Shown here piece after piece: positions 34,332-39,032 of a stretch of DNA of 51,308 nucleotides (the first letter of the stretch is position 1; every line of letters starts with the position of its first letter). The notes below the pieces were generated by a model that was not told the origin of the DNA, did no database searches, and saw only the letters and a program-made list of their open reading frames with translations. This DNA comes from Dehalococcoidia bacterium (lineage in GTDB: Bacteria > Chloroflexota > Dehalococcoidia > SZUA-161): NCBI GenBank assembly GCA_011174795.1, contig DUEY01000016.1:1-51308 (forward strand), given 5' to 3'. Made by a program: the position numbers and the translations under genes.

Positions 34332-35138
34332 TTGTTCTCCGCTGTTGAAATAGCCGCTATCCTTCTGATCGGGGCAACCGCTGGTTTAGTGACCGGTATT
34401 ATAGGCTCCAGCGGTGTAATGGTGATCGTCCCTGCCCTGACACTGTCACTGAGCTACGCTGTCCATACTGCCATCGGCACCAGTCTGCTCATCACTGTAG
34501 TCGCCTCGTCGGTTACTGCCTTTGTCTATTACCGCCATGGCAATATCTATGTCAGGCCTGCCCTGTGGATTGCTTTAGCCTCTATCGCCGGTGCACAGGC
34601 GGGGAGTGCGTTTGCCGACATGATACCGCCGATAGGAATGGGCAGTCTCTTCGGGTTCTTCCTAATACCGATGGGCCTCATATTGTGGGTCAGGGGGGTG
34701 CGAAAGACGGCCGCCTTAGCGGAGGGCTCGGCAATTTCGGAAGGGTCTCTTCCGGCAATGACCACGAAAAGCAGGCTCTCTGCACTTGGCCTGGGGCTGT
34801 TCGTCGGCATAACGTGCGGGCTGTTCGGAGCTGGCGGCGGCATAATGTTTCTGCTCATCCTTGTCTTTGTGCTGCACTATCCGCTGCACTTGGCAGTGGG
34901 CACATCCTCGCTTATAATGGCAATAACTGCTTTCTCTGGGGCTATGGGCTATAGCTTACGCAGCAATATTGATGTCTACGCTGCTCTCATTGCCAGCGTT
35001 CCCACGGTGTTAGTGGCGAGTTCCGGAGCAAGATGGGCTAACAGGGTCTCACCGTTAACTCTGGGTCGAATTATAGGGACAATGCTTGTAGCGCTTGGCA
35101 TCGCGATGATAGTGCTCAATATCATAGGTGAAGGATAA
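34332..35138 (+). CDS. TSUP (TauE/SafE) family sulfite/sulfonate permease
   Basis: Multi-TM, two-repeat pattern (GATAGLVTGIIGSSGVMVIVPAL...; GLFVGITCGLFGAGGGIMFLLILV...). Confidence 0.9.
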   Translation: MFSAVEIAAILLIGATAGLVTGIIGSSGVMVIVPALTLSLSYAVHTAIGTSLLITVVASSVTAFVYYRHGNIYVRPALWIALASIAGAQAGSAFADMIPPIGMGSLFGFFLIPMGLILWVRGVRKTAALAEGSAISEGSLPAMTTKSRLSALGLGLFVGITCGLFGAGGGIMFLLILVFVLHYPLHLAVGTSSLIMAITAFSGAMGYSLRSNIDVYAALIASVPTVLVASSGARWANRVSPLTLGRIIGTMLVALGIAMIVLNIIGEG

Positions 35139-36837
35139 AGAGATGCGCCTGTCGAAGATGTTCGGTAAAACCCTGCGTGAAGTGCCTGCTGATGCAGAGA
35201 CCGTGAGCCACCAGCTTTTACTTAAGGCGGGAATGGTTCAGCAGGTGGCGGCGGGGGTGTATTCGTATCTTCCCCTAGCGTGGCGGTCGCTGCGCAAGAT
35301 CGAGCAGATAATACGTGAGGAGATGAATGCCGCCGGCGGACAGGAGCTGAGTATGCCTGTCCTCCAGCCTCTCGAGATATGGGAGGAAAGCGGCAGGGAC
35401 TTTGCCTTCGGCAAGGGGCTGTTTACCCTCAAGGACCGCAGAGACCGTAGGCTGGTCCTTGGACCTACTCACGAGGAGGTGATTACCGACCTCGCCCGCC
35501 GCAACGTGAGAAGCTACCGTGACCTGCCCCTGATGCTTTACCAGATTCAGACCAAGTTCCGCGATGAGCCCCGTCCCCGTGGCGGGCTGGTGCGGGTACG
35601 CGAGTTCACCATGAAAGACTGCTACAGCTTCGATATCGATGAGGAAGCGCTGGAGCTCAGCTACCAGAAGATGAAAGAGGCATATAGAAATATCTATGCC
35701 CGCTGTAGCCTTGAGGCTGTTGTGGTCGAAGCCGACAGCGGGGCTATCGGGGGGAAGGACTCACATGAGTTCATGGTGATTGCTGAAACAGGCGAGGACG
35801 AGGTTATCTACTGTGGCGACTGCGACTATTCGGCGAACGTAGAGAGGGCGGAATGCGCCAAGTCGCATCTGGAGGAGGAGGCGCTGCTGCCCATGGAAGA
35901 GGTGGCTACTCCCGGGGCCAGGACCATTGAAGAAGTGGCAAATTTCCTTGGAGTGACCAGGGATCGCACCCTTAAGGCTGTTTTCTACTCGGCGGATGGT
36001 GAACTGATATTTATTACAATACGTGGTGACCTCGAGGTAAACGAAGTTAAGCTGAGGAACGCTCTGAAATGCTCTGAGTTGAGGCTGGCCAGCGATGAAG
36101 AGGTAAAGGAAGCAGGGCTTGTGGCAGGGTCGGCGTCTGCGGTGGGGCTTAAAGGGATTAAGATTGTAGCTGACGACTCGATAAATTTGGGACAAAACTT
36201 TGTCGTTGGCGCCAACAAGCCGGATGCCCATATCAAGAACACCAACTATCGTCGTGACTTCAAGGTGGACATCATCACCGATATCGCTCAGGCTGAGGCA
36301 GGGCACAGGTGTCCCCGCTGCGGCGGCGAGTTGCGGTCAACACGTGGTATCGAGGTAGGGCACATCTTCAAGCTGGGAACCATTTTCAGCCAGAAGCAGG
36401 CGGCTTTTTACCTTGATAGAGATGGTAATCAGAAACCTATGGTCATGGGCTGCTACGGTATAGGCCTGGGAAGGCTTCTCGCGGCGGCCATCGAGCAGAA
36501 CCACGACGAGGATGGAATTATCTGGCCTGTTCCTATAGCGCCATATCACGTTTATCTCTGTGCACTGGGCGTGGATGACCAGCAGGTGGTCTCAGTTTCT
36601 GAGAAGCTTTACACTGAGCTTGAAGAGAACGGTATCGAGGTACTCATCGACGATCGCAATGAGTCAGCGGGGGTTAAATTCAACGATGCTGACCTTCTGG
36701 GGATGCCGGTGAGGCTCGTTGTGAGCAAGCGCGCCCTGAAGTCGAATAGCGCCGAGTTGAAGATGCGCAGGGATAGAGAATCTGAGCTTGTACCTCTGGA
36801 TGAGGTAGCTGACAGGCTGAAGGAGCTGCTGGGTTGA
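35128..36837 (+). CDS. proS: Prolyl-tRNA synthetase
   Basis: MRLSKMFGKTLREVPADAETVSHQLLLKAGMVQQVAAGVYSYLPL; LGPTHEEVITD; QTKFRDEPRPRGGLVRVREFTMKDCYSFD; GCYGIGLGRLLAAAIEQNHDEDGI. Confidence 0.97.
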   Translation: MKDKEMRLSKMFGKTLREVPADAETVSHQLLLKAGMVQQVAAGVYSYLPLAWRSLRKIEQIIREEMNAAGGQELSMPVLQPLEIWEESGRDFAFGKGLFTLKDRRDRRLVLGPTHEEVITDLARRNVRSYRDLPLMLYQIQTKFRDEPRPRGGLVRVREFTMKDCYSFDIDEEALELSYQKMKEAYRNIYARCSLEAVVVEADSGAIGGKDSHEFMVIAETGEDEVIYCGDCDYSANVERAECAKSHLEEEALLPMEEVATPGARTIEEVANFLGVTRDRTLKAVFYSADGELIFITIRGDLEVNEVKLRNALKCSELRLASDEEVKEAGLVAGSASAVGLKGIKIVADDSINLGQNFVVGANKPDAHIKNTNYRRDFKVDIITDIAQAEAGHRCPRCGGELRSTRGIEVGHIFKLGTIFSQKQAAFYLDRDGNQKPMVMGCYGIGLGRLLAAAIEQNHDEDGIIWPVPIAPYHVYLCALGVDDQQVVSVSEKLYTELEENGIEVLIDDRNESAGVKFNDADLLGMPVRLVVSKRALKSNSAELKMRRDRESELVPLDEVADRLKELLG

Positions 36838-36871
36838 GGGTTTCTAACATGCCATATTCGCATACTGTGCA

Positions 36872-36900
36872 TTGACAAAAAAGGCTACGTGATGTAGTAT
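36872..36900 (+). promoter_or_regulatory. Strong sigma70 promoter (TTGACA-N17-TAGTAT) downstream of proS
   Basis: TTGACA aaaaaggctacgtgatg TAGTAT. Confidence 0.8.
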
Positions 36901-36947
36901 TTATACACGGAGCCAAATAGAGCCCCGAATTCAGGAGGGAGGTGCCT

Positions 36948-36992
36948 ATGAGGCTTCACGGACTTTTAGGGGTGTGGCAGATTGACAGTTGA
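36948..36992 (+). CDS. Putative 14-aa leader peptide MRLHGLLGVWQIDS
   Basis: AGGAGG at 36933-36938, 9-nt spacing, ATG...TGA; the stop codon lies 1 nt before the GNRA hairpin. Confidence 0.4.
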   Translation: MRLHGLLGVWQIDS

Positions 36993-37144
36993 GGCCCTGC
37001 CGAGAGGCAGGGCGGGCCGGCCTTGAACTCGGCTCGATGAGTAAGAGGAGGCCAGTCTGGCGATAAGAGACCTCATTCGGTGTTAAACACCGAGAGAAAG
37101 AGCCGGGCTCGAGACAAAACACAACAGAAGAAGAGCAATCTGTG

Positions 37145-37167
37145 GAGGGCGTTTTTGAAACGCCCTC
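37145..37167 (+). terminator. Intrinsic terminator of the proS-nusA intergenic RNA
   Basis: GAGGGCGTTT-TTG-AAACGCCCTC, 10-bp perfect stem, followed by TACTTT. Confidence 0.7.
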
Positions 37168-37243
37168 TACTTTATCCAGGCACAAGATATATGATGAATA
37201 GCCAGTGATGGTATCTCGTCAGGCTTGTTCGAGTGCGAGGGGG

Positions 37244-37272
37244 TTGCATTAAATTTTAAAAAATGCTATACT
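37244..37272 (+). promoter_or_regulatory. Sigma70 promoter for the nusA operon (TTGCAT-N17-TATACT)
   Basis: TTGCAT taaattttaaaaaatgc TATACT. Confidence 0.65.
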
Positions 37273-37295
37273 TCGCTCACTACAGACATGGAGCG

Positions 37296-37319
37296 AAGTG
37301 GGTATAACCCACTTTTTTG
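37296..37319 (+). terminator. Leader terminator/attenuator in front of nusA (rimP-leader-like)
   Basis: AAGTGGGT-ATA-ACCCACTTTTTT, 8-bp stem plus a run of T's, about 17 nt after the predicted start site and upstream of the nusA RBS. Confidence 0.75.
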
Positions 37320-37361
37320 TTAGTTTAAGGGAAGCGGTGTTTATAAGGAGGTCGGGGCAAG

Positions 37362-39032
37362 ATGAAAACAGATTTTCTACTTGCCATTACCCAGTTAGCT
37401 GCAGAGAGAAACCTGCCGAAGGAAGTGGTCTTCGCAGCGGTTGAGGCTGCGCTGGTAACTGCTTTCAAGAAAGACGAAGTTGGGGCACGCCAGGATATCT
37501 CGGTGAAGATTCACCCTGCCAGCGGCGATGTCAAGGTTTACGCTACCAAAATTGTCGTGGAAGAGGTGAACGATCCCTACAAGGAGATATTGCTTGCTGA
37601 GGCACGTAAAATAAAGAAGGATATCAAGGTAGACGAAACCATCTCCTTTGAGACAACCTCCTTTCACTCGGGACGAATAGCGGCACAAACTGCTAAGCAG
37701 GTTGTACTACAACGCCTTAAAGAAGCTGAGAGAGAGTTCATATTTGGTGAATACGCGGACCAGGAGGGGGACATCGTCAGTGGCGTAGTTCAGCGGATAG
37801 AACCGCGACAGGTTATTATTGACCTCGGAAAAGCGGAGGGGATATTGCCTCCGGGCGAGCAGGTGAGGGGTGAGCATTATCGAATGGGGCAAAGACTTAA
37901 ACTCTACCTGTTGGAGGTTAACAAGACAAATAAAGGGCCACGGCTCGTGATGTCTCGCTCACACCCGAATCTGGTAAGGCGTCTCTTTGAGTTAGAGGTT
38001 CCTGAGATTTATAACGGTAATGTGGAGATTAAAGCAGTTGCACGGGAGCCTGGCTATCGCAGTAAGGTAGCAGTGGCTGCGAACATGGAAGGCCTGGATC
38101 CTGTAGGCTCCTGCGTTGGGCTGAGGGGTGTCAGAATTCAAAACGTAGTTAACGAGCTTAATGGCGAGCGGATAGATGTTATCCAGTGGGATGATGATCC
38201 CAAAGTTTATATAGCCAATGCACTGAGCCCGGCGCAGGTAGTCAGTGTTGACATTAATGAAGCAGAGAATACGGCTATGGTTGTCGTTCCTGACAATCAA
38301 CTCTCTCTGGCAATCGGAAAAGAGGGGCAGAATGCCAGGCTTGCTGCCAGAATTACGGGCTGGAGGATAGACATAAAGAGCGCCAGTGCCGCAGAGTCGG
38401 AGAGGCTGGCCGTAGCGGCGGAGAAGCCTGAAGAGGCTGTTCCGGCTAAGGAAAAGATAGCGGCAAAGAAGGAGAAACCGCATGTACCTGCGGTGCATCC
38501 AGAGCTGTATGAGAGGCCATTGGAGCAGCTCGGCCTTTCGTCGCGAGCATTCGGCTTGCTGCTCGGAGTTGGGATTACCAAGATAGGGCAGCTTCTGGAA
38601 AAGAGCGATAAGGATTTACTCGCGATGAAGGGCTTCGGCAAGAAAGCTCTTGAAGAGGTTAGGGAGCGGCTCGAGGCGCTTGATATACTCCCACAACCGG
38701 TTAAGGAAGAGATAGAAGTACCTCAGGTTGGTGTTGAGGAAGAAGCCGAGCTTATCGAGGAAGTAGAGGAGGCAGTGGAGGAGGTCGAGGCTGAATTAGT
38801 CCCCTATGAGGCACCTCCTGAGGAAGAAAAGCCTGCCGTGAAACCCAAGATTCGCTTCGCTGAAGATATCTTTGCTACTGCGGCGGTCGGTCCTGAGGTC
38901 GGTAAAAAGGGTAAGAAGAAAAAGAAGAAGCCGTCAAGAGAGGAGCGATTGGAGGATGCTAAGGCGAGGAGAGGGAGAAAAGCTCCTCGTGTGACCGTTG
39001 AGGATGAATATGAAGAGGTTGTTGAGGAGTAA
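37362..39032 (+). CDS. nusA: Transcription termination/antitermination protein NusA with acidic/basic C-terminal extension
   Basis: MKTDFLLAITQLAAERNLPKEVVFAAVEAALVTAFKKD; S1 and KH domains (VGSCVGLRGVRIQNVVNELNGERIDVIQWDDDP; NQLSLAIGKEGQNARLAARITGWRIDI). Confidence 0.96.
   Translation: MKTDFLLAITQLAAERNLPKEVVFAAVEAALVTAFKKDEVGARQDISVKIHPASGDVKVYATKIVVEEVNDPYKEILLAEARKIKKDIKVDETISFETTSFHSGRIAAQTAKQVVLQRLKEAEREFIFGEYADQEGDIVSGVVQRIEPRQVIIDLGKAEGILPPGEQVRGEHYRMGQRLKLYLLEVNKTNKGPRLVMSRSHPNLVRRLFELEVPEIYNGNVEIKAVAREPGYRSKVAVAANMEGLDPVGSCVGLRGVRIQNVVNELNGERIDVIQWDDDPKVYIANALSPAQVVSVDINEAENTAMVVVPDNQLSLAIGKEGQNARLAARITGWRIDIKSASAAESERLAVAAEKPEEAVPAKEKIAAKKEKPHVPAVHPELYERPLEQLGLSSRAFGLLLGVGITKIGQLLEKSDKDLLAMKGFGKKALEEVRERLEALDILPQPVKEEIEVPQVGVEEEAELIEEVEEAVEEVEAELVPYEAPPEEEKPAVKPKIRFAEDIFATAAVGPEVGKKGKKKKKKPSREERLEDAKARRGRKAPRVTVEDEYEEVVEE

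Follow-up and report, generated by a model that had tools for sequence, protein, structure and literature searches.

Introduction

Both arrest leaders and small RNAs that are translated have been described before. To our knowledge, the short arrest peptides described so far are encoded in the leader of a regulated gene. Attenuation of pyrE is known in enterobacteria. Among the arrest peptides, ErmBL halts the ribosome with its Asp10 in the P site, its residues Arg7 and Val9–Lys11 being critical (PMC4935803).

Here we consider an element located between proS and nusA in a 51,308-nt stretch of DNA (further, the window) from a Dehalococcoidia bacterium of the phylum Chloroflexota (assembly GCA_011174795.1, contig DUEY01000016.1). 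Comparative data indicate that it is a real, undescribed small-RNA gene family, found across Chloroflexota. It resembles ErmBL, ErmCL, and TnaC in having a short ORF, a strong Shine-Dalgarno sequence, and the critical residues at the C-terminal end of the peptide; as in arrest leaders generally, protein-level selection in this short ORF is observed at the residues nearest the peptidyl-transferase center. However, ErmBL, ErmCL, and TnaC are leaders of a regulated gene, whereas the Chloroflexota copies are mostly free-standing and have a terminator; a 5′-leader position is seen in the pyrE branch and in the copies preceding sir2 and secreted-protein genes.

Of the translated small RNAs, SgrS/SgrT and rnTrpL/peTrpL (Sinorhizobium, PMC7298713) are similar to the element as small RNAs with a translated short ORF in the 5′ part and, as proposed for the element, act apart from a downstream gene. 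Their peptides and RNAs are, however, unrelated to those described here. We also know of no fixed codon-to-hairpin register or closed three-way junction in either of them. The enterobacterial pyrE/pyrBI attenuators share a translated leader, a terminator, and pyrE with one branch of the Chloroflexota family, but the leader and the RNA are different, and most Chloroflexota copies have no pyrE downstream. The Downstream-peptide and yfr6 RNAs (Weinberg 2010, PMC2864571) also combine a structured RNA with a short conserved ORF within approximately 250 nt; in those RNAs, the ORF is preceded by the structure, which is located in the 5′ UTR and constitutes a separate motif of other organisms, while in Chloroflexota the ORF comes first. 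In Rfam and in the open, non-preprint literature we have found no free-standing RNA that combines a folded domain with an arrest-like peptide and a hairpin locked in register. For Chloroflexota, a phylum represented largely by genomes of uncultured bacteria, the family contributes one more conserved RNA and one more conserved micropeptide; a 14-codon gene would escape ordinary annotation.

Results

Locus Between proS and nusA

The proS (35128–36837) and nusA (37362–39032, assigned by Pfam) genes flank an intergenic element of about 300 bases, in which a promoter and a 14-codon ORF are followed by a hairpin, a three-way junction, and a terminator (Table 1). The genome from which the window comes contains one copy of the element, and the predicted transcript folds with z = –5.5 relative to dinucleotide shuffles.

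Table 1. Features of the proS–nusA intergenic element, with positions in the window.
Feature	Position	Strand	Remarks
Sigma-70 type promoter TTGACA-N17-TAGTAT	36872–36900	+	TTGACA 36872–36877, TAGTAT 36895–36900; 10/12
Helix P0, 5′ strand GGAGCC	36909–36914	+	MFE fold; own vs. swapped pairing
Helix P0, partner GGCTTC	36952–36957	+	Inside codons 2–4; P0 encloses the Shine-Dalgarno sequence and the start codon
Shine-Dalgarno sequence GGGAGGTG	36937–36944	+	In the family, GGAGG(TG) is nearly always present
14-codon ORF, MRLHGLLGVWQIDS and stop	36948–36992	+	Core G-V-W-Q-V-D, GVWQID in the window
Asp codon GAC	36984–36986	+	Last conserved residue; 7 nt before H1; proposed P-site codon
Hairpin H1, GCCCTGCC-GAGA-GGCAGGGC	36994–37013	+	8 bp, GAGA loop, 1 nt past the stop
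Closing helix P1, 5′ strand	37022–37035	+	Covariation; own vs. swapped pairing
Arm P2, GAGGCC-AG-TCT/AGA-GACCTC	37048–37074	+	10/10 pairs with compensatory changes
Arm P3, TCGGTG/CACCGA	37077–37093	+	6/6 counted pairs with compensatory changes
Closing helix P1, 3′ strand	37100–37113	+	Covariation; own vs. swapped pairing
Intrinsic terminator	37142–37175	+	13-bp stem and TTTAT tail; fold of the window sequence

The preliminary description of this locus had proposed the promoter, the 14-codon ORF with its ribosome-binding site, and an 8-bp GAGA hairpin starting 1 nt after the stop codon; all of them are present, and the hairpin pairs covary. The proposed three-way junction is borne out by the fold and by covarying helices, but its closing helix spans 14 positions (13 of them paired in the window), not 6 bp. 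One of its arms, P3, stands as described, and the other, read as ATGAG/CTCAT, has to be replaced by P2 in the light of comparative data. The terminator is indeed there, with a longer stem than the 10 bp originally given, and helix P0 had been overlooked.

A promoter-like sequence TTGCAT-N17-TATACT is seen upstream of nusA (37244–37272), followed by two hairpins, the second of which has a T run (37295–37315); this arrangement may be a separate nusA attenuator. In the region 35128–39032, proS is followed by nusA with no ORF recognized as rimP in between; rimP commonly precedes nusA in other bacteria.

Distribution of the Element

Scanning with Infernal cmscan against Rfam 15 at the gathering score yields no match at the element, either in the window or in 20 further loci that include distant members, and nothing credible appears there at relaxed thresholds. 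The suggestion that this is a candidate undescribed RNA class holds, given that cmscan gives no match, relatives and other classes contain homologs, and the helices covary. In the open, non-preprint literature we found nothing relevant on the peptide, on arrest or leader peptides of Chloroflexota, or on such small RNAs. Several known RNAs were considered and rejected. The tmRNA (G000:C1:1199–1551) and SRP RNA of this genome are encoded at other positions; the 6S RNA model RF00013 finds nothing in these genomes, and the element has a translated ORF and a three-way junction. Programmed frameshifting is rejected as there is no slippery heptamer before H1, and a selenocysteine (SECIS) role, as UGA is not invariant.

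The DNA search of 61 related genomes identified the element in all eight relatives searched within its family, as well as in several further families; three loci from this search (L016–L018) lack the peptide and were discarded as chance matches. Covariance models were built from 14 copies and then, for the ORF and H1, from 82 diverse copies. Model search finds the element in 112 out of 394 genomes belonging to the class (two to eight copies each in some of them), as well as in other Chloroflexota classes. An exact degenerate pattern (GVxQxD-x-stop and a hairpin arm), applied to one genome per species in 85,462 bacterial and archaeal species, matches 39 loci, all labeled Chloroflexota, Chloroflexi, or Dehalococcoidia and subgroups. 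Conservation in 137 non-redundant loci is far beyond chance.

A phage or mobile origin was rejected, with zero exact-pattern matches in viral contigs and no copies found in plasmids. The listed complete genomes of family f15 contain no copy, so the element can be lost, and this, together with the patchy distribution in the class, means that it is not essential across the class.

Conservation of the Peptide

The peptide statistics were collected over the 137 non-redundant copies. The core residues G, V, W, Q, V, and D are kept in 127, 134, 105, 130, 123, and 123 copies, respectively, the Asp position being occupied by E in six more. Third codon positions vary in 32, 66, 32, 61, and 42% for the G, V, Q, V, and D codons, while positions one and two vary in at most 10% outside the Trp codon (Trp has only one codon). 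Such freedom at third positions with nearly fixed first and second ones demonstrates protein-level selection on the core.

Conservation stops at D, with no conserved residue after it, and the stop codon may be TGA, TAA, or TAG, or be absent. Residues upstream of the core are weakly conserved (M-R/K/T-L-H in Dehalococcoidia, others elsewhere) and may be held in part by the P0 pairing.

RNA Structure

All eight H1 pairs covary, with 94.5% of cells paired and none of 500 shuffles scoring as high. For the junction, we used an unguided alignment of 35 copies, in which P1, P2, and P3 comprise 14, 10, and 6 pairs. Standard pairs occupy 86% of the cells, and 27 out of 30 pairs have changed on both sides (11 out of 14 in P1); if the partners are slid by one to three columns, the fraction of paired cells falls to 31–44%. 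The same three helices are recovered by RNAalifold unaided. The homolog and covariation check that the preliminary description had called for thus comes out in its favor. Moreover, the P1 strands prefer their own partner to swapped ones (z = –18.6), and a control stretch shows no such preference; for P0, this comparison gives z = –3.5 with –0.9 in the control, providing moderate support.

Conserved nucleotides in the junction are AAGT-GAG and the P2 bulge AG. Judging by single-sequence folds, copies from other classes mostly retain the same plan of a hairpin, a closed multibranch domain, and a terminator, with different sequence. The covarying helices are all mutually compatible, and by eye we see no conserved alternative pairing of H1 or P1 with the terminator. 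An antiterminator formed by the H1 and terminator arms was considered and rejected by inspection: the shared GCCCT/AGGGC of the window's family is absent from L014, L083, and L085.

Register of the Asp Codon and H1

H1 starts 6–7 nt past the D codon in 112 out of 137 copies. The stop codon is found directly after D in 10 copies, one codon later in 95, and farther on in 32, and the distance from D to H1 is mostly kept in all three groups. As this spacing is independent of the stop, it is the D codon and the hairpin that are held in register. The ribosome-controlled layout noted in the preliminary description therefore survives these checks, but with the conserved distance measured from the Asp codon and not, as proposed, from the stop.

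The simplest reading suggested by the alignments is that the position of the ribosome matters, with the Asp codon in its P site and H1 facing it, the content of the A site being free. This suggests that the nascent peptide arrests the ribosome when Asp occupies the P site, by analogy with ErmBL, where V-D also precedes the A-site codon, a resemblance of sequence only (PMC4935803). From these comparisons, we consider arrest at the Asp codon to be somewhat more probable than its absence. Reduced forms (L148–L154, L221, L225) keep only the peptide core and H1, implying that GVWQVD and H1 constitute a minimal, separable unit.

Transcription Units and Gene Neighborhoods

TTGAC is found within 110 nt upstream in 105 out of 127 copies; the promoter score is 9.0, compared to 6.4 in mononucleotide-shuffled sequence, and the sites are located mostly 75–84 nt before the ATG. 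Terminators are predicted in 114 out of 125 copies, compared to 14% in mononucleotide-shuffled sequence, where base composition only is kept. With a predicted promoter and terminator of its own and a translated ORF, the element has the makeup of a dual-function small RNA. Indeed, of the two options raised initially, an attenuator or a free-standing small RNA, the latter fits the majority of copies, which are free-standing units with their own promoter and terminator. The options are not mutually exclusive, and from its gene order the pyrE branch has the appearance of true attenuation.

Among downstream ORFs of at least 120 aa, the nearest one shares the strand of the element in 97 out of 142 cases and lies on the opposite strand in 45, and upstream ORFs of this length are split 71 to 66, both counts being based on mechanical calls with clade copies not independent. 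Copies with an opposite-strand downstream gene include L064, L079, L084, L094, and L096. Neighbor clustering reveals shared genes only clade-wise: proS (6), rhomboid (10), rpe (7), and pyrE (11), which argues against most copies being attenuators of one fixed gene.

A conserved gene reachable only by read-through, as expected for an attenuator, is observed only in the pyrE branch, and is seen neither in the window, given the promoter-like site of nusA, nor at copies with convergent neighbors. At 13 loci, representing at least five families, pyrE lies on the same strand right after the terminator, its ATG mostly within a few tens of nucleotides, leaving no room for a promoter. In this branch the element, judging by this arrangement, should gate pyrE by read-through. 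In families f77 and f78, reduced copies without the junction and the terminator are located directly before secreted-protein genes, several per genome, and in family f22 they directly precede sir2.

Proposed Mechanism and Alternatives

We estimate at roughly 0.5 the probability of what we consider the best explanation: an RNA of approximately 265 nt that would at the same time be a tiny mRNA, with arrest at the Asp codon and an output directed mostly away from the neighboring genes. A ribosome would initiate on the ORF and make M...GVWQVD, and the nascent chain would silence the peptidyl-transferase center with Asp in the P site and a sense or stop codon in the A site. H1, located at the mRNA entry of the ribosome, would add to the block, P0 would re-form behind the ribosome, yielding one ribosome per RNA, and the junction domain would be presented at the entry side. 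In most genomes, the arrested complex would act apart from neighboring genes as a ribosome-holding or translation-sensing RNA; in some lineages, the module may have been recruited in cis, acting on pyrE through the terminator and, as a 5′ leader, on sir2 and secreted proteins.

The trans output of free-standing copies seems less probable than the arrest itself, and the excess of same-strand downstream genes (97 vs. 45) counts against it, leaving room for cis roles. More tentatively, the element could be an autonomous RNA gene whose product is an arrested ribosome, that is, the first class to park or mark ribosomes via its own arrest peptide and an entry-side structured domain, present in the ancestor of Chloroflexota and recruited in cis on several occasions. 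If true, ribosome stalling would be put to a new use in a phylum-wide family, with the arrest-like peptide, the hairpin locked in register, and the folded domain making up a gene by themselves.

The main rival to the arrest model is a released peptide, which the conservation of the short peptide could reflect instead: a signal or effector of 12–20 aa with an active C-terminal GVWQVDx, H1 and the junction serving only to stabilize its mRNA. Protein-level selection on the core, the free-standing transcription unit, and the stop codon right after D or Dx in 105 out of 137 copies are consistent with it, but 32 copies run on into unrelated tails with no conserved residue after D, H1 is positioned relative to the D codon rather than to the stop, and by inspection there is no signal peptide or hydrophobic segment; we regard this explanation as unlikely. 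The opposite possibility, that the ORF is fortuitous in a structured non-coding RNA, is compatible with the strong RNA structure, but the variation of third positions (32–66% except Trp, vs. at most 10% at the first two) is decisive against it and leaves it a negligible chance.

A general cis attenuator, in which ribosome behavior on the leader decides terminator read-through into the next gene, would account for the 13 pyrE loci and for the same-strand bias, and has a precedent in enterobacterial pyrE; yet the next gene downstream is convergent for many copies, in some of them within a conserved context (L076 and L079, as well as L084 and L094, which share an opposite-strand neighbor), downstream genes such as rpe and rhomboid appear by eye to have promoters of their own, and conserved alternative pairing of H1 or P1 with the terminator is not seen, making it quite unlikely as a general explanation. 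It is still harder to see the three-way junction as a ligand-binding aptamer to which the peptide only couples translation: the conserved junction nucleotides with the P2 bulge and the compact covarying fold would be expected of an aptamer, but the reduced forms dispense with the junction while keeping the peptide core and H1, and the junction sequence differs between classes, so that we consider this role improbable.

Divergent and Associated Loci

Several loci deviate from the common pattern. At about 100–200 in L201, the peptide core is tandemly duplicated, the ORF ending in ...AFLGAWQVDQAFLGVWQVD and the stop. Genome G011, with eight module matches, contains divergent paralogs (L092, L095, L162, and L163) with a longer ORF and the ends GVWLEYQ, GVWLEIQ, or GVWLEID. 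In paralogs L073 and L093, the core is GVWLFPS directly followed by the stop, with the length and the hairpin spacing unchanged, and this is possibly another solution to the same arrest.

In L148 (2926–7230), there are two identical genes for a 225-aa secreted protein with no Pfam match, ending in ALEGWNDRASPIS; each is followed within a few nucleotides by a reduced GVWQVD leader and then by a different secreted-protein gene. Finally, an ordinary c-di-AMP riboswitch is located on the minus strand of L190 (392–521), approximately 2.5 kb from the element.
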